From positions 1-35,356 of the forward strand of contig VGZI01000049.1 of assembly GCA_016872605.1 (NCBI GenBank): 35,356 bases of DNA. Direction: 5' to 3'. Positions within the stretch are counted from its first letter, which is position 1; the number at the start of each line of letters is the position of its first letter. The DNA comes from Planctomycetota bacterium. GTDB lineage: Bacteria > Planctomycetota > Planctomycetia > Gemmatales > Gemmataceae. Positions 3,316-24,059 of the stretch are shown here, piece after piece. The notes beneath the pieces are model-generated. The model made no database searches. It was not told the DNA's origin and worked only from the letters and a program-made list of their open reading frames with translations. The position numbers were made by a program, and so were the translations under genes.

Positions 3316-4641
3316 ATGATGATGGCCACGCCTAGGCTACGATCTTCTTGGATTTCGCTGATCTGTCACGCCGGCCTGGGAATCGCGGTGATGGTCACCG
3401 TTGCCGCGATTCTTTGCGAGGCGCTGGCGACGGAGGCCTACCACATCCCAAGCGGCAGTATGGCGCCGGCCTTGCGTGGACATCACCGAAAGTGCGCGTG
3501 CCCGCGCTGCGGGCAGGAAATCGTTGTGGGCCGGGCGGCCGACGATCGCTATGCGACGGGCGACGCACGCTACTATCGCAATGCATTCTGCCCAAATTGC
3601 GGTCTGTCCCCGATCCCCATCGCCGACGTTCGCGAATCGCGCGGCGACCAAGTACTCGTGAACCGCATGGCCTATCGCCTTCGGTCCCCCTCGCGCTGGG
3701 AGATCGTCGTCTTTCGGCTCTTCGGGACATTCTACATCAAGCGAATCCTCGGGCTGCCTGGCGAGGTCATCGAAATTCGCGATGGCGATCTGTACGTGAA
3801 TGGCTCGCTCTGCCGCAAGAGCTTCGTCGAAGCACGCCGCATGCGAATCCTCATGTTTGATCAGGCCAAGGTCCCTCAGAACATCGGTTGGCGCGATCGC
3901 TGGGAGGCGCGAGGTTCGGTGTCCGCTGACGGCGCAATGGTATCGCTCGATGGTCGCCGGTCGGCGGCAATGTTGACCTACCGCAACTTTCTGCTCGATG
4001 AGCGTAAATGTGAGCCGATCCGCGACGAATATGCTCATAACGCCGGACTCCGCGGCGACAGCGAATGCGTCCACGATTTCTGGGTCGAGACCGAGATCGA
4101 GGTGTCGGCGGGAAGCGGAACTTTGGCGTTGCGACTGTGCGATGGCCACGACTGGGTCGACGTTACGCTTCCTATCGGGACGCGCGAAAAAATCACGACA
4201 TCGGCATCCACGGTCAAGTCGTCGAGCGCTGTACGGACGCTGGAGCGATCGGAACGGCGCGTGACATTGGAGCCAAGCCGGCGCTACCTTGTGGAAGTCG
4301 CGTTTGTCGATCGCCGTCTGAGCGTCGCGATTGATGGCGAGGTCTTGCTAAGCGCCGATTTGCCGGAAGCAAAGAACAGCGCCGGCGTCGCCAGGCCGTT
4401 TCAAGTACACGCCGACGGGGTCGCGGCCACGCTGCATGGCCTTCGCCTTTACCGCGACGTGCATTACAGCCAGCATGGCAAGAACGCCGTTCGCGGCGCG
4501 TCTGTGCGATTGGGGTCGGATCAATATTTTATGCTGGGGGACAACAGTCCGCAGTCGGAGGATAGCCGATTCTGGCCCGACGATGGTTGTGTGCCGTTCA
4601 GCGAGTTGATAGGCCCCGTGACTTCCGTGCGCGGTAAGTAG
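3316..4641 (+). CDS. lepB: Signal peptidase I with zinc ribbon and large insertion
   Basis: This is a membrane-bound Ser/Lys protease (family S26) that removes signal peptides from exported proteins. One N-terminal membrane helix (about residues 13-36) is followed by the catalytic Ser48 in PSGSMAPAL. A CPRC...CPNC zinc-ribbon-like insertion (C62, C65, C92, C95) comes next, then GDQVLVNR, the general-base Lys142 in FYIKRILGLPGE, and the conserved LGDNSPQSEDSR box near the C-terminus. About 230 residues between the Lys box and the GDNS box form an insertion with beta-rich sequence. At 441 residues it is longer than the E. coli enzyme (324). GGAG at 3305-3308 supports ATG 3316. It heads a tandem of signal peptidase genes. 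Confidence 0.92.
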   Translation: MMMATPRLRSSWISLICHAGLGIAVMVTVAAILCEALATEAYHIPSGSMAPALRGHHRKCACPRCGQEIVVGRAADDRYATGDARYYRNAFCPNCGLSPIPIADVRESRGDQVLVNRMAYRLRSPSRWEIVVFRLFGTFYIKRILGLPGEVIEIRDGDLYVNGSLCRKSFVEARRMRILMFDQAKVPQNIGWRDRWEARGSVSADGAMVSLDGRRSAAMLTYRNFLLDERKCEPIRDEYAHNAGLRGDSECVHDFWVETEIEVSAGSGTLALRLCDGHDWVDVTLPIGTREKITTSASTVKSSSAVRTLERSERRVTLEPSRRYLVEVAFVDRRLSVAIDGEVLLSADLPEAKNSAGVARPFQVHADGVAATLHGLRLYRDVHYSQHGKNAVRGASVRLGSDQYFMLGDNSPQSEDSRFWPDDGCVPFSELIGPVTSVRGK

Positions 4642-4673: not shown

Positions 4674-5183
4674 ATGCCGGCCGATCAACCGACGCCATCC
4701 AGCGGACCGCCCGATGCGATCAAGCCCGGCGTAATCCCACCCAAGGACGCGGCGCCGGCGCCCATTCCGCCCGGCGCGATCTCGGTCGAGCCGATGAACG
4801 TGCCGCCCATCCCGCTCGATCCCAAGGCCCCCGCGACCAAACAGACGCCCGCACCCGCCAGCGCATCGAAATCCGAGCCGGAGATCAAGGATAGCTATCG
4901 CGAACTGGTCGAGACGATCGTCTTTGTTGTCGTCCTCGTGTTGATGCTAAAGACGTTTCTGGCCGAGGCATTCGTCATTCCCACGGGCTCGATGGGTGAT
5001 ACGCTGCTGGGCTATCACCACAAAGTGACCTGCCGGCAATGCGGCCGCACCGAGTTCTTCAACGCCAGCGACGAAGCCGAGCCGAAGCGGGGCCGTCGTC
5101 CCATCGAAGTCGTGGAATGCCGGTGCGAGAACTGTGGTTACTGGAACCGAATCTCCAGCGCGGGGCAAGGGGGCGTACCATGA
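4674..5183 (+). CDS. Signal peptidase I, Ser half (split gene, first part)
   Basis: This 169-residue protein holds only the first catalytic half of a signal peptidase I. Residues 1-70 are a Pro/Ala-rich cytoplasmic tail, and one membrane helix spans about 79-96. The nucleophile Ser106 sits in IPTGSMGDTLLGY at the outer membrane face. A zinc ribbon (C120, C123, C151, C154) follows, and the frame then ends in TGA. The Lys box and GDNS box are missing and are supplied by the next gene, whose ATG overlaps this stop as ATGA. AAGGG upstream supports ATG 4674. Translational coupling and assembly of the two halves are inferred. Confidence 0.85.
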   Translation: MPADQPTPSSGPPDAIKPGVIPPKDAAPAPIPPGAISVEPMNVPPIPLDPKAPATKQTPAPASASKSEPEIKDSYRELVETIVFVVVLVLMLKTFLAEAFVIPTGSMGDTLLGYHHKVTCRQCGRTEFFNASDEAEPKRGRRPIEVVECRCENCGYWNRISSAGQGGVP

Positions 5184-6706
5184 ACTTGCGGCGTTGGATT
5201 TCGATTCTGCTCTTGTTTACCATGATCGCCGGCTGCGGCAACCCCTGGAGCAGCGGCGACCGCGTGCTGGTTACCAAGCTACCCCACGGCAACGGCGTTT
5301 CCGGGCCCCATCGCTACGAAGTCGTTGTCTTCAAGTACCCGACCCGGCCCATCGAAAACCACTCGCCGACCAATTACATCAAACGCTTGCTCGGATTGCC
5401 GGGCGAGTTGTTGGCGATCTTCTTTGGCCGACTCTATCGCTGGACGCCGCCGGCCGGCGGCAAGGCGCCGTTCAATGATGACGGTGTCGATGCCAAGTTG
5501 CTTTGGCGCAAGGAGTACATGCATCACAATGAGCAGCCATTCGCTTACCTCGATCCCGATCACGCCAAACGCAATGACACCGAGCGAACGGCCGAGTGGA
5601 AGAAATGGTTCGAGCAGGGGAACTTCGAAGTCCTTCGCAAACCGCCGCACGTGATGCTCTCCATGCGGCGCATTGTTTACGACAACGACTTTCAAGCCAA
5701 GGACATGGCCCACTTGCTTCGCTGGAAACCGAATGCCAAGAGCAGCGCGTGGAAGGCCGACGGCAAAACCGGCTTCACCCACGACGGGCAGGCCGACGGC
5801 CAGACCGATTGGCTCCATTACCAGCACTTGGTCCGGCCCGATGGCGTTCTCGCCGGCGCCGCCGACATCAAACCAAAGCTGATCACCGATTCGCTCGCCT
5901 ACAACAACTTCAAGTACGTCGAGCTCGACAGAGATGACCAAGGCCGATTCCGGCGCGGGGCGATGATCGATCGCAGCGGTGAGTCGTTCCCGCATTGGGT
6001 GGGCGACTTGTTGATCGAGTGCAATGTCGAAGTGACCCAGGCCAAGGGAGAATTCTGGCTCGAACTCAACAAGGGCGTGTACCGCTATCAAGCCCGCTGG
6101 GACCTTTCGTCCGGCCAATGTGCTCTGAAGAGCATCGATATGGCCGGCAAGGAAAAGGACCTCGGTTCGACCGCCACCAGCGTCAAAGGGCCGGGCAACT
6201 ACATGCTTCGCCTCGCCAACATCGACGCCCGATTGACCGTCTGGGTCGATAGCGGCCTGCCGTTCGGCGACGGCGTCGATTATCCGCCGCCCGAGCTGCG
6301 CGGCCCCGATGACAAGGACATGAAGGCCGTCAAAGACCGCCGCGGACCCACCGTCAACGATCTCAAACCAGCGAGTCTCGGCAGTAAAGGCGCCTCGGTC
6401 AAGATCACTCACTTGCGGCTCTGGCGCGACACCTACTATTCGACCTGGATTCCGAGTCAAATCCCGCCGGTCGATCCGGATTATGCCCAAGCGCCGAAGT
6501 CATTCACCGATCCGGTGGATTGGGATCCGATTCGCCAGCCGAACTTTTCGACCTGGTACGTCCAGCCCGGCCACTACATGTGCCTGGGGGACAACAGCGC
6601 CGCCAGCAGCGATAGCCGCGACTGGGGCGTCGTCCCTGAACGCCTGATGCTGGGACGAGCCCTCGTCATCTATTGGCCCCTCGACCGCATCGGCCGGATT
6701 CGTTAA
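5180..6706 (+). CDS. Signal peptidase I, Lys half with lipoprotein-type signal (split gene, second part)
   Basis: This 508-residue protein starts at ATG 5180, with AAGGGGG six bases upstream and an ATGA overlap with the preceding stop. Residues 1-19 read as a lipoprotein signal: basic start, hydrophobic core and a lipobox-like IAGC with Cys19. After it come GDRVLVTK, the catalytic Lys68 in YIKRLLGLPGE and, near the end, LGDNS (469-473) with SSDSRDWG. The middle 380 residues are a large insertion including beta-rich, lectin-like sequence similar in style to the upstream 441-residue paralogue. No catalytic Ser box is present, so activity would need the preceding protein. The frame extends upstream to 5039, but that part is the shadow of the other half. 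Confidence 0.85.
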   Translation: MNLRRWISILLLFTMIAGCGNPWSSGDRVLVTKLPHGNGVSGPHRYEVVVFKYPTRPIENHSPTNYIKRLLGLPGELLAIFFGRLYRWTPPAGGKAPFNDDGVDAKLLWRKEYMHHNEQPFAYLDPDHAKRNDTERTAEWKKWFEQGNFEVLRKPPHVMLSMRRIVYDNDFQAKDMAHLLRWKPNAKSSAWKADGKTGFTHDGQADGQTDWLHYQHLVRPDGVLAGAADIKPKLITDSLAYNNFKYVELDRDDQGRFRRGAMIDRSGESFPHWVGDLLIECNVEVTQAKGEFWLELNKGVYRYQARWDLSSGQCALKSIDMAGKEKDLGSTATSVKGPGNYMLRLANIDARLTVWVDSGLPFGDGVDYPPPELRGPDDKDMKAVKDRRGPTVNDLKPASLGSKGASVKITHLRLWRDTYYSTWIPSQIPPVDPDYAQAPKSFTDPVDWDPIRQPNFSTWYVQPGHYMCLGDNSAASSDSRDWGVVPERLMLGRALVIYWPLDRIGRIR

Positions 6707-6794: not shown

Positions 6795-7739
6795 TCATCG
6801 CTTCCGCGGTTGCAGCGGGAATTGCGTGATTGTCAAACCTTCGCTTGTCATGAAGTGATCCAACAATTCGACCCGGCCCGCGGCTTTCATCCGGGCGTAC
6901 AGCCGCGTCATCTCGTCGAGCCAGACGGCGTTCAGATAATTCGGGTGATCGCGCGACAGTTCGTGATAAAGAGCCAGGCGGCGGCCAAAGTTCTCCGACT
7001 CCACGCGTGCTTTCTTGATCTCGATATCCGCGTAGTTCACCGCCTGATTGTAAATTCGCTTCGCCTCCGCCTCGCTATCGCTGCGGATGTTCCTGGCCTT
7101 CTCTTCCGCCTGATTCGTTTGCGTCTCGATGCTCGTCTGAGCCTGCGCGAGCTTATCAAAATCGCTTTTGACCTGGTCGGGAGGTTCGAGTTTGGAAATA
7201 CTCGCCTGCTCGATCTCGATGCCGAGGCCGTAGCCTTTGACGCGGTCCTGCAAGTGCTGGACAATGTAGCCCGGCAATTCACTTCTGCCGGTGCGCAGGA
7301 CATCGTCGATCCGTCTCCCGGCGAACCACTCGGCCAAGAGCGACTCGGCAGCCCGCGCGACGAAGGCGTCGACGCTGTCTTGCTGCAGCACGTAGCGATC
7401 CATGTCCTCTTCGCGGACCTTGAAGTTGATCGACGCCACCACATTCACCAGGTTATGATCCCCGGTCAGCATTTGCCCATTCGGCACAACTTCCTCGTCG
7501 CGGTCCTCTTTGTCGTTGAACCCCACGGTAATGCTGCGAACGCGCCCGACCGGCGCAAGATCGACGCGGTCGATGCCCCAGGGCAACCCGATGTGCAGGC
7601 CCTGCTGCGGCTTGTGATCGAGGATGCGGCCAAACCGACGTATCACCGCGCGCTCGTGCGACCGCACCTGCGTGAGCGACGTGTACGCCGTCCACGCGGC
7701 AAAGGCGATGCCGAGCACGATCAGGATGTACCGAAACAT
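6795..7739 (-). CDS. SPFH/band-7 protein, HflK-like
   Basis: A 314-residue membrane-anchored SPFH (stomatin/prohibitin/flotillin/HflK-C) protein. One N-terminal membrane helix (about 4-22) leads into a band-7 domain that begins with SHERAVIRRFGRIL and PQQGLHIGLPWGIDRV, which is typical of HflK. An Ala/Glu-rich coiled-coil region (about 205-260) follows. In E. coli, HflK and HflC form a cage around the FtsH protease and modulate it. This gene follows an HflC-like gene and an ATPase-SPFH fusion on the same strand, so the three probably form one operon and a hetero-oligomer. The start codon is ATG with a weak ribosome binding site. No FtsH gene is in the window. Confidence 0.85.
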   Translation of the reverse strand: MFRYILIVLGIAFAAWTAYTSLTQVRSHERAVIRRFGRILDHKPQQGLHIGLPWGIDRVDLAPVGRVRSITVGFNDKEDRDEEVVPNGQMLTGDHNLVNVVASINFKVREEDMDRYVLQQDSVDAFVARAAESLLAEWFAGRRIDDVLRTGRSELPGYIVQHLQDRVKGYGLGIEIEQASISKLEPPDQVKSDFDKLAQAQTSIETQTNQAEEKARNIRSDSEAEAKRIYNQAVNYADIEIKKARVESENFGRRLALYHELSRDHPNYLNAVWLDEMTRLYARMKAAGRVELLDHFMTSEGLTITQFPLQPRKR

Positions 7740-7767
7740 CGTCTGTTACACCGTGATGCCGATTCCT

Positions 7768-7805
7768 CGTTTAGCGCTCGCACGACCCCGCGCGGGCGCT
7801 AAACG
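7768..7805. repeat. Inverted repeat, CGTTTAGCGC family
   Basis: Arms 7768-7777 and 7796-7805 (CGTTTAGCGC/GCGCTAAACG) are perfect and lie between two SPFH genes of one apparent operon. The same core recurs at 15138-15185 and, as a partial copy, at 28101-28142. Confidence 0.8.
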
Positions 7806-7814
7806 TAAACCCGC

Positions 7815-8786
7815 CTACTTTTTGTCCTTCTCCGCCGGACGAGGTTCCTTAAAGAGCGCCTCGAACATTGACCGATGCGTCGACAACAACAGCATCGTCC
7901 GCTCTCCGCCTACGATCGCTTGAAGCTGTTCCATCTGCTTGACGAACTTGAAAAACTCCGGGTCCTGGCTGTAGGCTCGATTGAGTATCTTCATCGCTTC
8001 GATATCGGCATCAGCCTCGATTCTGGCCTTGTCGCGCAGAGCCATCGCTCGCTCCAGGCGTTTGTCTTCCTCGGCTTTGTTGAGGATGTTGGCAGCCTGC
8101 AGTCTGCCGTCACTCTCATAGTCCGTGGCGGCTTTGCTCCGGTCGCTTTTGATGCGAGCGAAAATCGAATCGCGCACGCTGGCGGGGTGGTTGAATCGGC
8201 GCAGGCGAATATCCACGAGATCAATGCCGTACTTGTCGCGCAACCGGTCCTTCAGGCTGGCGATGAGATCGACGCGTAACTTCTCGACCGTGAATTCGAC
8301 GCGCGTTTGACCCGTTTGCGGATCGACGATCGTGAGACTGATGAAATCGTCCATGCGCTTTTTGCCGATGGCGGCGCCGATCTTCCCCGTAATCTCGGGA
8401 GCCAGGATGTCGCGTGCTCGGCTCGCGGTGCCGACGCTGCGGACGAACAGGTCCACACCCTTGGCATCGCTGATCTTCCAGCAGACGTAGGCTTCCAGCA
8501 GCAGAATCTTGTCGACCGTCTTACCCTTCGGGTCGTGCGTGAGCTGCTCGGTAGGCGGCAGATCGAAATGCTGCAGTCGGCGATCGAGGCGTTGCACCTG
8601 CTGGATCGGCCAGGGCCAGCCGAACTTGAGTCCGGCGCCGCTGGGATCGCCCCCATCGTGCGTCGCTGTATGCTCGCCCAAGACCGTCACGTACGCATAC
8701 TCGGCGGCGTCGACGGTGAAGAACGAAAACCGAACGTACACGATGCTCACAATCGCAACGGCGGCTAGTATGAAAACACTCTTCAT
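7815..8786 (-). CDS. SPFH/band-7 protein, HflC-like
   Basis: A 323-residue SPFH protein of HflC type. It has an N-terminal membrane helix (about 3-20) and the entry motif of the band-7 domain (DAAEYAYVTVLGEH, then AGLKFGWPWPIQQVQRLDRR). The region IDLVDIRLRRFNHPASVRDSIFARIKSDR is characteristic of HflC, and an Ala/Glu-rich coiled coil precedes the C-terminal SQDPEFFKFVK segment, also seen in HflC. ATG 8786 is chosen because GGAGG lies seven bases upstream. The longer open frame (to 8876) only translates the inverted repeat upstream. It is expected to work with the neighbouring HflK-like proteins as a membrane quality-control complex. Confidence 0.88.
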   Translation of the reverse strand: MKSVFILAAVAIVSIVYVRFSFFTVDAAEYAYVTVLGEHTATHDGGDPSGAGLKFGWPWPIQQVQRLDRRLQHFDLPPTEQLTHDPKGKTVDKILLLEAYVCWKISDAKGVDLFVRSVGTASRARDILAPEITGKIGAAIGKKRMDDFISLTIVDPQTGQTRVEFTVEKLRVDLIASLKDRLRDKYGIDLVDIRLRRFNHPASVRDSIFARIKSDRSKAATDYESDGRLQAANILNKAEEDKRLERAMALRDKARIEADADIEAMKILNRAYSQDPEFFKFVKQMEQLQAIVGGERTMLLLSTHRSMFEALFKEPRPAEKDKK

Positions 8787-8798
8787 GGCAATACCTCC

Positions 8799-8868
8799 GT
8801 GGGGCACGTTTTCAACGTGCCCGTGACCGGACCCAAGCTTCGAGTGGCACGCTGGAAACGTGCCCCAC
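8799..8868. repeat. Inverted repeat, GGGGCACGTTT family
   Basis: Arms 8799-8821 and 8846-8868 match at 21 of 23 positions. Each arm is itself a smaller hairpin (GGCACGTT...AACGTGCC). It lies between the ATPase-SPFH fusion and the HflC-like gene. A shorter copy occurs at 17943-17960. Confidence 0.85.
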
Positions 8869-8876
8869 GGCGCCAC

Positions 8877-11800
8877 CTAATGATCATCCTTCCCCGGCCG
8901 AAACGGTTGTCGAATCTCCGGGTCGGGCCGCATGATGATCGGCGGCGGGGCCCGGAATAGCTCCGGATCGAACAGCATCAGATTCCGCCGCACGTTGATC
9001 TTCTCCGCGTCAATCAAAAGCAGATCGCGGCCAACGAGCGCCTTGGCCACCGCATTCCAGTAATGGCGAAAGTCCGTCAACCCCGGTTGCAGTTTCAAGA
9101 GTGCATCGCGTTCGCGCTGCGGCGCCGCAATCGCCTCCTCGAGCGACTGCCCGGCGAACAGCGCTTTCGAGGCACGCCACGAAAAGACCAGATCGATGTC
9201 GATCGGCAACTCGGAGCGCGGCCGATACTGCGCTTCAAACCGCAGGCGGTCCCTGTCCGCCTCTTGCAGCTTCTCGGCTTTCTCCGCGCGAGCCACGGCA
9301 CGGATCCTCGCTGCTTCCGCCTCGGTTTCTTTCTGCTTGCGCTTGGCCTGCTCGTTGGCCTCGTTGATACGTTGATCACGGCGTTCCATTGCCTTGGCGA
9401 CTTCGTAGTACGCATCCACGACATCCCCCGGCGGATGCAAATCGATGATCGATATTCCGTCGAGTTCGACGCCGAGGCCGTTTGCCGCCAGTTCATTGCA
9501 GCGAGCGGCAACGCGGCGAAGGACATCGTCCTGAAATCGTGCGCGTTCCACCGTCAGAAGCTCGGCGAACTTCCGGCCCGCCACCATGGTCCGCAATTCC
9601 GATTCTGTGGCGGCGCGAATGATCTCGTCCGCATCGCTGATTTCGAATAAGTACACGCGCGCCTTCGTGACGCGAAAGCGGATCGTGACCAGGATATCGA
9701 CGAGGTTGCCGTCGCCCGTGATCATCATGGCTTCGTTGGCGACGCGGGTTTCCTTGCGATGCGCGCTGGCCCAGGTCATCGCACCGGTCTTGGTCGCTTC
9801 GGCCGCCTCACGGAAGCCGATGTTCAGCGTCCGCGCACGCTGCGACACGCGCACCGCATCGTCGATCGGCCACGGATAGCGCCAGTACCAGCCGGGCTGC
9901 AGGTCTTCGATGGGCCGACCGAATCGGCGAACAACGGCGACCTCGTCCGGCGCAACGACCGTCAACCCGCTGGCGACATATGCGACTACCAACAGTCCCG
10001 CGAGCGCGCCGGTCAGCGGTTTCCAATTGTGCTCGCACCAGTGAAGCGCCGCGCCGAAGTCCGCGTACTGCGTCAGCCACGACTCGGCGTCGTTCAGCCA
10101 TTCTTTCCAGGCCTTGAACGTCTCGCTCGTTTCGCTGCGTTCGAACCAAAGCAGCCGCATCGAATTCAGCAACACCAGCATGGAGCCGAACTGATGGTAG
10201 ATCACCGCGGCGAGCGGCGATTGCTCGTACCAGGCGTCCGGCGTGAATAGCGGCCAAAGCCAGGCGGTCAGCACGATGCCGATGGCGTTGACGATGAACG
10301 CGAAAACGATGATATTCTGGCGAATGATCTTGACGGTCTCGCGCGAGAGCCGAACGAGCAAGGGCAACGGCTTGAGCAGATCGCCCATAAGAATAATGTC
10401 GCCCGCTTCGGCCGCAATGTCCGAGCCCGTGGAACCGATGGCGATGCCGACGTCGGCGGCGGCGAGAGCGGGCGCGTCGTTGATGCCGTCGCCGACCATG
10501 GCCACCTTCGATTTCGTCTTCATGTCGGCAATGCGCTGGGCCTTCTGATCCGGTAAAAGTTCCGCATGGATCTCGCTCAGGACCAAGTCTTGCGCGACCG
10601 ATTTGGCGGCCGCATTGCGGTCTCCCGTGAGCATGACGATCGGCTCGATGCCGAGGTCGCGCAGCTCCTTGAGCACGATGGCAACGTCCGTGCGCACGCG
10701 ATCGCGCGCTCCGATGACGCCGAGCAAAATACCGTCTCGTGCAACCAACAGCGCTGTCTGCCCGGACGCGTCGAGCTTTGCAAGAGCTTCGCCAGCCGAA
10801 TCGGAGACTAGAATGCCCTGCTCTTCCATGAGCCGTGGCGTGCCGACGAGAATCTTGCCCGATGCGGTGGTTGTCACGACGCCAGCGCCGGCTTGAGCTT
10901 GAAACTCCATGACGCTATCGAGTGGAAGCTGGCGTTTGCCGGCTTCTTGAACGATGAGCCGAGCGATCGGGTGCTCGCTGCGCTGCTCGGCGCCGGCGGC
11001 GATGCGCAACAGTTCATCGGGGCTGATGTCAGCCAGGCAGACGATGTCGCCGATTTCGAGTTTCGCCTCGGTGATCGTGCCCGTCTTGTCGAACGCGAAT
11101 GCGTCGACCTCGGCCAGACGTTCGAGGGCGGCGCCGCTCTTGATCAACACGCCGGTGCCGGCCAGTCTGCCAAGCGCAGCGATGACGGCCGCCGGCGTTG
11201 CCAGGATCAAGGCGCACGGACAGGCGACCACGAGGACCGAGAGCGTCGGATACACGCTGAACGTGATCGCCGCGCGGAGCCCAAGCCGCGGCGCGTTCGC
11301 GGGCCGAAACCAACCCGCGCCGAAATGAAGCATGCAGCAAAGAAACGTGACGGCTGCGATGCCGAGCACCGCCGGTAGAAACATCCGCGCCAGCCGATCG
11401 GCCGTCCGCTCGATGTTGCTTTTGTCTTTCAGCGCCTTGGCGGTCGTCTCGATAACGCGCCCAGCCACGGTATGTTCGGCGACGCGCTTGGCGTCGATCA
11501 CCAGCGCTCCGGCAACGTTGATCGAGCCGGCCAGCACCTCGTCGCCGGGACCCTTGTCAATCGGCAAACTTTCGCCGGTGAGCGCGCTCGTGTCGACCGT
11601 CGATCGGCCTTCGAGGACGACGCCGTCGACTGGAATCTTGCCGCCCGGTTTGACGACGACGCGGTCGCCGATCACCAGGTCCTTCGTGAAGGCGCGTTCT
11701 TCCTTGCCGTCGCGCAGAACCCAGCAGCGGATTGGAAAGACCTCGACGAGTTGCCGGATGGCGGCTTTGGTGCGATCGAAAGTGAAAGCCTCGAGGCATT

Positions 11801-12224
11801 CGCCGAACATGCCGATGAAGACGACCTCGGCAGCGACCATCCACTCGGGGATGGCGATGGCGGCGAGAAAGGCGATGGCGATGGCCAGGTCGGCGCCGAT
11901 CTTGCCGTCGAACAGCCCTTGCAACGCCGTGTAGACGACGCGAGCGCCGCCCAGCACCGCCGCGAGTATCACGAAGCGAATCGTGCCGAAACGGTATGTG
12001 CCCAGATCGCGCGGCCAAGCGTCGAAGAGCGACCAGGTCATCCATTCGCCGAAGCGCGGCAACAAATCGAGCGCCATCAATACCGCCAGCAGCCCCGTCA
12101 TCAGGTAGAGCGGCAGACTGCTGTCGTCGCCAAACGCGTCGTCGCTGTGTGAGATTTCACGATGCATGAATCGACGTCGATCGAAAGTTTCCGATCCGTC
12201 GGCTGGGGGTTGGGATAAACCCAT
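8877..12224 (-). CDS. P1B-type metal ATPase fused to an HflK-like SPFH domain
   Basis: A 1115-residue fusion. Residues 1-700 are a complete heavy-metal P-type ATPase: membrane helices near 38-54, 80-98 and 112-142, TGES (216-219), a CPC metal-binding motif in the membrane (335-337), phosphorylation site D379 in DKTGT, the P1B-specific His-Pro pair (418-419), GDGIND (578-583), and last helices near 636-690. No N-terminal metal-binding domain is visible. The last helix reads HQFGSMLVLLNSMRLL, so the metal (Cu, Zn or Co class) is unclear. After a linker, residues 738-754 form a ninth helix, followed by an HflK-like SPFH domain (about 755-1000) and coiled coil. The predicted topology puts the SPFH domain outside, as in HflK. 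The start is uncertain (ATG 12224, or Met20 at 12167). Confidence 0.9.
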   Translation of the reverse strand: MGLSQPPADGSETFDRRRFMHREISHSDDAFGDDSSLPLYLMTGLLAVLMALDLLPRFGEWMTWSLFDAWPRDLGTYRFGTIRFVILAAVLGGARVVYTALQGLFDGKIGADLAIAIAFLAAIAIPEWMVAAEVVFIGMFGECLEAFTFDRTKAAIRQLVEVFPIRCWVLRDGKEERAFTKDLVIGDRVVVKPGGKIPVDGVVLEGRSTVDTSALTGESLPIDKGPGDEVLAGSINVAGALVIDAKRVAEHTVAGRVIETTAKALKDKSNIERTADRLARMFLPAVLGIAAVTFLCCMLHFGAGWFRPANAPRLGLRAAITFSVYPTLSVLVVACPCALILATPAAVIAALGRLAGTGVLIKSGAALERLAEVDAFAFDKTGTITEAKLEIGDIVCLADISPDELLRIAAGAEQRSEHPIARLIVQEAGKRQLPLDSVMEFQAQAGAGVVTTTASGKILVGTPRLMEEQGILVSDSAGEALAKLDASGQTALLVARDGILLGVIGARDRVRTDVAIVLKELRDLGIEPIVMLTGDRNAAAKSVAQDLVLSEIHAELLPDQKAQRIADMKTKSKVAMVGDGINDAPALAAADVGIAIGSTGSDIAAEAGDIILMGDLLKPLPLLVRLSRETVKIIRQNIIVFAFIVNAIGIVLTAWLWPLFTPDAWYEQSPLAAVIYHQFGSMLVLLNSMRLLWFERSETSETFKAWKEWLNDAESWLTQYADFGAALHWCEHNWKPLTGALAGLLVVAYVASGLTVVAPDEVAVVRRFGRPIEDLQPGWYWRYPWPIDDAVRVSQRARTLNIGFREAAEATKTGAMTWASAHRKETRVANEAMMITGDGNLVDILVTIRFRVTKARVYLFEISDADEIIRAATESELRTMVAGRKFAELLTVERARFQDDVLRRVAARCNELAANGLGVELDGISIIDLHPPGDVVDAYYEVAKAMERRDQRINEANEQAKRKQKETEAEAARIRAVARAEKAEKLQEADRDRLRFEAQYRPRSELPIDIDLVFSWRASKALFAGQSLEEAIAAPQRERDALLKLQPGLTDFRHYWNAVAKALVGRDLLLIDAEKINVRRNLMLFDPELFRAPPPIIMRPDPEIRQPFRPGKDDH

Positions 12225-19800: not shown

Positions 19801-23967
<4,167 letters not shown>

Positions 23968-24059
23968 TGTTCCTACCAAATCGAGGTCTCCAGAGCCCGA
24001 AGCGCAAGCGATGCGTATCGGGCAGGATCCCGTGTAAACCGTTTCTGGTCCGAAAGTTC

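Follow-up and report, generated by a model that had tools for sequence, protein, structure and literature searches.

The locus described here lies in a stretch of 35,356 nucleotides (the window; contig VGZI01000049.1 of assembly GCA_016872605.1) from a planctomycete of the family Gemmataceae. It consists of a gene in which a P1B metal ATPase is fused to an HflK-like SPFH domain (SPFH-1), followed by an HflC-like and an HflK-like gene (SPFH-2 and SPFH-3). With moderate confidence, we read it as the fused form of a widespread module composed of a P1B transition-metal ATPase and three HflK/HflC-like SPFH proteins, in which the pump is probably built into an SPFH assembly and would handle Zn2+ or Cu+ under metal limitation. 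The fusion, the conservation of its motifs, the operon association of pump and SPFH genes whether fused or not, and the residues which both forms share in SPFH-1 and in the last membrane helix (M6) of the ATPase are observed directly.

The fused gene is a single uninterrupted frame on the reverse strand (8877–12224, 1115 residues) that runs from the ATPase through a ninth membrane helix into the HflK-like band-7 domain, as the first-pass annotation of this DNA had proposed; frame, Pfam, NCBIfam and motifs all bear this out. Pfam matches, each over its cut-off, are E1-E2_ATPase (residues 163–355), Hydrolase (373–591) and Band_7 (756–960), and the NCBIfam model for heavy-metal P-type ATPases, TIGR01525, scores 548 bits against a cut-off of 346.25 over residues 112–691. 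Together with the catalytic motifs TGES, CPC, DKTGT, EHP (HP), TGD and GDGIND (GDGxND), this identifies a heavy-metal P1B ATPase. In an alignment of 60 fused ATPases (the window and 59 loci, some of them truncated at contig ends) DKTGT is found in all 60 rows, CPC in 59, the remaining row having a gap, TGES in 55, and TGD in 54, with SGD in the other six. Translation probably starts at Met20, giving a gene of 8877–12167, because the MHRE sequence beginning there (M20-H21-R22-E23) is kept in at least 90% of 55 aligned fusion rows.

The search for the SPFH part of the fusion covered 99 genomes (genomes and loci carry our G and L numbers), a long frame being defined as an open frame of at least 861 residues that holds the SPFH match. 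Such a frame occurs in 60 genomes, the window genome counted: in 50 of 61 within its family, in six of seven in a second family of the order, and in four of 31 elsewhere in the class. In two further family members (G322, G316) the fused frame is broken by a frame or contig break, and no fused frame was found in nine, three of which are at least 94% complete (G308, G309, G348). Among the 60 loci fetched, 59 hold ATPase and SPFH in one frame (L084 partially) and one, L123, is unfused; the fusion in G343 was confirmed separately (L135), and G315 and G350 are counted only on the length of the frame. Among the best matches listed for 392 genomes sampled across the phylum, fused frames were confirmed in G000, G160, G216, G361 and G454, while two other long frames (G165, G179) turned out not to be fusions. 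Among the 5000 best-scoring plasmid records, none covers 80% of the fusion. The fusion is mostly a trait of the window's order, Gemmatales, and its wide distribution in relatives disposes of the objection that it might be absent from them. An assembly artefact joining two contigs, conceivable in a genome assembled in 372 contigs, was rejected: the same in-frame join is repeated across many separately assembled genomes, which leaves this explanation a negligible probability.

Nor does the system occur solely as a fusion or solely in the lineage of the window; Pseudomonas and Burkholderiales commonly have it as four separate genes. In L123, an SPFH-1 of 599 residues with several helices, an HflC-like, an HflK-like and a separate P1B ATPase gene (646 residues) stand in one row. 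The same four genes occur on named plasmids of Paraburkholderia sprentiae and Burkholderia ubonensis, where their annotations read HflK, HflC, SPFH and P-type ATPase; the P. sprentiae kit has a gene for a PCu(A)C copper chaperone beside it and, further upstream, a zinc ABC operon. A genome scan with an alignment of proteobacterial SPFH-1, built from three plasmid loci, gave 151 relatives, of which the best 80 were kept, that is, the closest relatives, mostly Pseudomonas (P. nitroreducens, L179; P. protegens, L221; and others) and Burkholderiales. All 83 proteobacterial loci (80 from genomes, three from plasmids) have the SPFH-1, HflC, HflK-like and P1B genes on one strand; by frame start this order is exact in 77, overlapping starts swap the last two genes in five, and SPFH-1 lies in two frames in one. 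Since the query was SPFH-1 alone, the co-occurrence with the other kit genes is not built into the search. In planctomycetes the ATPase is fused (type A), encoded downstream of the SPFH genes (type B) or upstream of them (type C; L237–L239, L250); outside the family of the window, 48 planctomycete loci selected for SPFH similarity have the kit unfused in 22 cases and fused in one. These arrangements bear on the suggestion that the fusion is an accidental, neutral joining of adjacent genes that do not work together. The genes of the kit form an operon, and a deletion in a type C locus could fuse ATPase and SPFH-1; in the commoner type B order, however, the ATPase comes after the SPFH genes, so that loss of a stop codon cannot yield an ATPase–SPFH-1 chain, and the fused frame has persisted in 60 of the 99 genomes with motifs and signature retained. 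A neutral origin is for these reasons very improbable. Downstream of the kit, Pseudomonas loci carry an MbnB/TglH/ChrH-type gene in 16 cases and a DUF2063-type gene in 15 (one member of each identified by Pfam), and L205 has an additional Cys-containing small frame of 83 residues. Metal-peptide clusters of the bufferin type are composed in this way, and these genes, like the copper chaperone and zinc ABC genes of P. sprentiae, are metal-related neighbours of the kit.

Judged by its gene content and gene order, the unfused kit appears to include the hmtA locus of P. aeruginosa (PA2439–PA2435), a known zinc/copper transporter operon for which published gene numbers and the description of the locus give the same four components in the same order. 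The window locus likewise unites a P1B ATPase and three SPFH domains or genes in one operon. It differs from the hmtA type in that there the ATPase is a separate gene, belonging with unfused ATPases that form a clade apart from the fused ones, and the SPFH-1 of a Pseudomonas relative carries a six-helix domain of its own. In L178 a frame of 150 residues (11234–11686) separates SPFH-3 from the ATPase, in the position that PA2436 would have in P. aeruginosa. The first promoter of the hmtA locus is reported to bind the zinc regulator Zur. According to one study (PMC4542158), PA2437–PA2439, annotated HflC, HflC and HflK, respond together with HmtA (PA2435) to Zn depletion: they are up 9- to 14-fold in a znuA mutant and HmtA 5.6-fold, with a weak Zur site listed. 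Proteomic data, as far as the available text reports them, agree in direction and are only partly significant (PMC11761036), and PA2437–PA2439 are marked as Zur regulon in another source, the available text of which does not name hmtA (PMC9431628). A 2026 survey (PMC13086221) names the SPFH genes of this locus PaFlo5-7; its available text contains neither 'ATPase' nor 'hmtA'. In our own scan, which covered the proteobacterial set, a Zur-box-like site with at most four mismatches was found near the start in 42 of the 83 loci, nearly all of them Pseudomonas, and in none of these 42 did more than three of the 26–36 intervals compared within the locus, counting the one with the site itself, score equally well.

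SPFH-1 carries a W-x3-H and an HPP signature, both of which are invariant in 16 aligned rows, fused and unfused, and also in 50 unfused rows, some of them picked after the motif was noticed. Exceptions among ATPase-linked rows are L240 (F for W, and HVP) and L273 (HPD). In the 48 planctomycete loci, signature and ATPase occur together in 23 and neither in 20; four have the signature without ATPase (L241, L248, L270, and L249, which is cut by the contig), and one has the ATPase without signature (L263, whose ATPase groups with other P1B rows). The association gives a Fisher p of 2.3e-8, with the signature changing only about twice on the tree; an independent-pairs test had one or two usable pairs and no power. 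Seven planctomycete triads (type D; L234, L235, L236, L243, L244, L247, L274) resemble the module in combining a long SPFH, an HflC-like and an HflK-like gene, and differ in having no ATPase in the fetched stretch and W-x3-H in none of the seven; they represent another SPFH kit. On the ATPase side, His occupies position 677 in M6 in 49 of the 54 module ATPases compared: in all 21 fused and all 13 proteobacterial ones, in all four of type C, and in 11 of the 16 unfused ones from planctomycetes. Of 29 other planctomycete P1B rows, 19 have Met there, four Asp, three Asn and three His; two of the rows with His, L026 (a gene also seen in L237) and L030, group with type C. CPC is kept in 21 of 21 fused rows. 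The unfused planctomycete module ATPases of L123 and L128 have CPG or CPV in its place, L123 also Q for the M6 His, and are possibly non-transporting, judging from these residues.

In fold and motifs the fused ATPase resembles CopA, ZntA and 7QBZ, a cadmium-annotated P1B ATPase, from all of which it differs by its SPFH tail; no N-terminal metal-binding domain was found in it by Pfam. Assignment to the copper class P1B-1, whose motif we take to be MxxSS in M6, is not indicated, with TIGR01511 at 387.8 against a cut-off of 397 and M6 reading HQFGS in contrast to MALSS in E. coli CopA. The same holds for the Zn/Cd class P1B-2 of ZntA, presumably marked by Asp in M6 (DTGAT in E. coli ZntA), since NF033775 gives 328 against 1240 and His takes the Asp position; the fusion thus has His where these two pumps have Met or Asp. 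Nor is P1B-4 indicated, the class to which we assume 7QBZ to belong, with SPC in M4 and HEGxT in M6 as its motifs: the fusion has CPC and HQFGS, and only its M6 His is common to both, aligning with the His of HEGST in 7QBZ in a weak alignment (E 1.3). The broader model TIGR01512 is passed at 417.8 against 313.5.

An AlphaFold2 model of the fusion (55-row alignment; mean predicted local distance difference test score 82.5, predicted template modelling score 0.63) consists of eight long helices, assigned to the membrane part of the ATPase, the helix 734–751, an SPFH-like fold and long helices up to residue 1063; residues 810–818 are of low confidence. Foldseek ranks CopA (4bbj, 7r0g) and ZntA (4umw) first, with 7qbz also among the top matches. 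Taken by itself, the SPFH part has a sequence match to E. coli HflK (E 3.1e-18) and, like the subunits of the E. coli HflK/HflC–FtsH cage (7VHP, 7VHQ, 7WI3), is followed by long helices; it differs from HflK in the attached ATPase, in the W-x3-H insertion, in HPP where HflK has RPP, and in scoring under the HflK cut-off. According to our own assignment in two AlphaFold2 models, the number of helices before the SPFH helix is even in both forms, eight in fused type A and six in unfused type B, and would therefore keep the SPFH domain outside, on the periplasmic side, in fused and unfused proteins alike. The outward SPFH domain predicted at the outset fits this helix count of a single-chain model. 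The six helices form an N-terminal domain of unfused SPFH-1 (L179, 7029–8984, and others); its best Foldseek matches besides SPFH proteins are zinc transporters of the CDF family (YiiP, E 8.4e-3), a weak lead, and of the 27 Pfam families matched by 50 members none of the 25 displayed is a CDF family.

The HflC-like and then the HflK-like gene follow the fusion on the same strand in the window, an arrangement that Pfam and NCBIfam confirm. The Band_7 model PF01145 gives 90.3, 58 and 74.2 bits for fusion, SPFH-2 and SPFH-3 (cut-off 23.6), placing all three in the SPFH/Band_7 family. The HflK equivalog TIGR01933 (159.4 bits) is not reached by the fusion (113.5) or by the gene at 6795–7739 (122.7), nor the HflC equivalog TIGR01932 (134.4 bits) by the frame 7815–8876 (120.5), and the labels are kept as HflK-like and HflC-like for that reason. 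Among the 59 fetched fused loci other than the window, an HflC-like gene on the same strand is present in 43, and the HflK-like gene too in 39 of these, so that ATPase–SPFH and the two SPFH genes do not always co-occur, as the first-pass annotation had proposed to check. Where a distant HflK-like match was fetched in 11 genomes (11 of 11 have the HflK-like gene by selection), an HflC-like gene was detected beside it in five (L136, L137, L140, L142, L143). The most widespread cluster among the other neighbours of the fusion occurs in eight of 61 loci (heuristic gene calls, clusters unannotated).

For the topology, a shared complex, the metal, its direction of transport and any role of the SPFH-1 histidines, the following arrangement may be put forward. 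The eighth ATPase helix would bring the chain back to the cytoplasm, and the ninth would take SPFH-1 across to the periplasm; there, most likely, this domain forms a ring or cage with the HflC-like and HflK-like subunits. The pump would then be a built-in member of the SPFH assembly and not free cargo, standing at the wall of the cage, with the cytoplasmic domains of the pump underneath. A role in handling Zn2+ or Cu+ under scarcity is favoured because of the hmtA data, by analogy with that zinc-responsive unfused locus. Of the metal pump in an SPFH microdomain first envisaged, the fusion is real and SPFH genes usually follow it; the microdomain or cage itself we infer. A more specific version, which we consider improbable, would have the three SPFH subunits form a periplasmic chamber over the ATPase, with the histidines of W-x3-H and HPP binding Zn2+ or Cu+ and passing the metal on via the M6 His; if true, it would provide a substrate-capturing antechamber for a pump reported to import its metal.

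On the other hand, the protein could be a P1B exporter of the ordinary kind, with an SPFH tail that serves only to connect it to HflKC–FtsH quality control, to be stabilised or degraded, without any SPFH part in metal handling. P1B ATPases are usually efflux pumps, according to the accessible part of PMC10393844, all three SPFH genes are HflK/HflC-like, and the window genome has two FtsH genes and seven Band_7 matches, three of which are the genes of this locus. Both FtsH genes, however, lie on contigs other than that of the fusion, and the SPFH-1 signature, which is not found in E. coli HflK or HflC, occurs in 23 of the 24 planctomycete loci that have an ATPase and in four of the 24 that have none in the fetched stretch (few independent changes). 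The zinc response of the unfused operon points to metal as well. We regard the quality-control explanation as fairly unlikely.

Several observations weigh against a pump built into an SPFH assembly for metal limitation. Concerning the link to zinc, hmtA mRNA is reported as low throughout, with no repression by added Zn; the accessible part of PMC10393844 describes hmtA as an exception among Zur-bound uptake promoters and its import direction as needing confirmation. The SPFH operon PaFlo5-7 is patchy among ten Pseudomonas references and, in the available text of PMC13086221, had no marked phenotype in the traits tested. No good Zur-like site was found in 41 of the 83 unfused loci, including all Burkholderiales but one. 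Sixteen of the 59 fused loci have no HflC-like gene in the fetched stretch, at least two of which (L117, L103) end at a contig end, and the second Cys of CPC is missing in eight of 16 unfused planctomycete ATPases, which questions transport there. As the signature changes only so rarely on the tree, it marks a subfamily, and its association with the ATPase is no independent proof of function. Furthermore, the fused ATPases form one clade (support 94) and types B and C another (100), other P1B rows falling on the fused side of the midpoint root, and the free SPFH tree splits SPFH-1, with the fused row L127 near ordinary HflK. Holding all module ATPases as one clade is not rejected (approximately unbiased test, p 0.573), nor is SPFH-1 as one clade (p 0.178). 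The trees allow a single origin without proving it: either a single old kit has diverged, or kits of similar make arose on more than one occasion. Under either origin, P1B pumps are repeatedly found with this kind of SPFH-1.

Coordinates of the fused gene, its parts and the two SPFH genes in the window
Feature	Position	Strand	Remarks
Fused P1B ATPase and SPFH-1 gene	8877..12224	-	1115 residues; likely start Met20, 8877-12167
P1B ATPase core, residues 112-692	10149..11891	-	TIGR01525
CPC metal motif, residues 335-337	11214..11222	-	Alignment
DKTGT phosphorylation motif, residues 379-383	11076..11090	-	Alignment
M6 motif HQFGS, residues 677-681	10182..10196	-	H677 and S681 in 21/21 fused rows compared
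Ninth membrane helix, residues 734-751	9972..10025	-	AlphaFold2 helix; hydropathy peak 740-758
SPFH/Band_7 domain, residues 756-960	9345..9959	-	Pfam
W-x3-H signature (W818, H822)	9759..9773	-	SPFH-1 alignments; insertion not in E. coli HflK
HPP signature, residues 930-932	9429..9437	-	SPFH-1 alignments; E. coli HflK has RPP
Predicted long helices C-terminal to SPFH fold, residues 933-1063, read as coiled coil	9036..9428	-	AlphaFold2
HflC-like SPFH gene (SPFH-2)	7815..8786 (ATG start)	-	Pfam Band_7; TIGR01932 120.5 bits
HflK-like SPFH gene (SPFH-3)	6795..7739 (ATG start)	-	Pfam Band_7; TIGR01933 122.7 bits

Elsewhere in the window, a signal peptidase I (S26) is apparently split into two forward frames (4674–5183 and 5039–6706). 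The first contains a membrane helix and the serine region PTGSM; the second opens with a lipoprotein-like leader (LLFTMIAGCG), after which comes GDRVLVTK. Three fetched relatives (L068, L069, L070) show this split too, and it therefore looks conserved and not like a sequencing error. A second S26 signal peptidase in a single frame (3316–4641, forward strand) adjoins it, with a large insertion between its two Pfam stretches and counterparts in L068–L070. On the reverse strand, a SecA-like frame of 1392 residues (19801–23979) far exceeds in length its best-scoring models (814 and 787 positions), which it matches in several separate stretches.

What is described here is not a new protein family; it is a fusion and a module of known parts, broader than first seen. 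No description of the fusion or of the module was found in the open-licence literature searched, mostly by title, and the word 'ATPase' is absent from a 2009 survey of SPFH proteins (PMC2636767). SPFH cages are known around the FtsH protease from solved structures, and the fusion together with the unfused operon indicates that they may have a second kind of client, some metal pumps perhaps operating within such a cage. For the Pseudomonas SPFH proteins PaFlo5-7 this offers a testable role. If true, it could, speculatively, also bear on why HmtA is reported as an importer while most P1B ATPases export.

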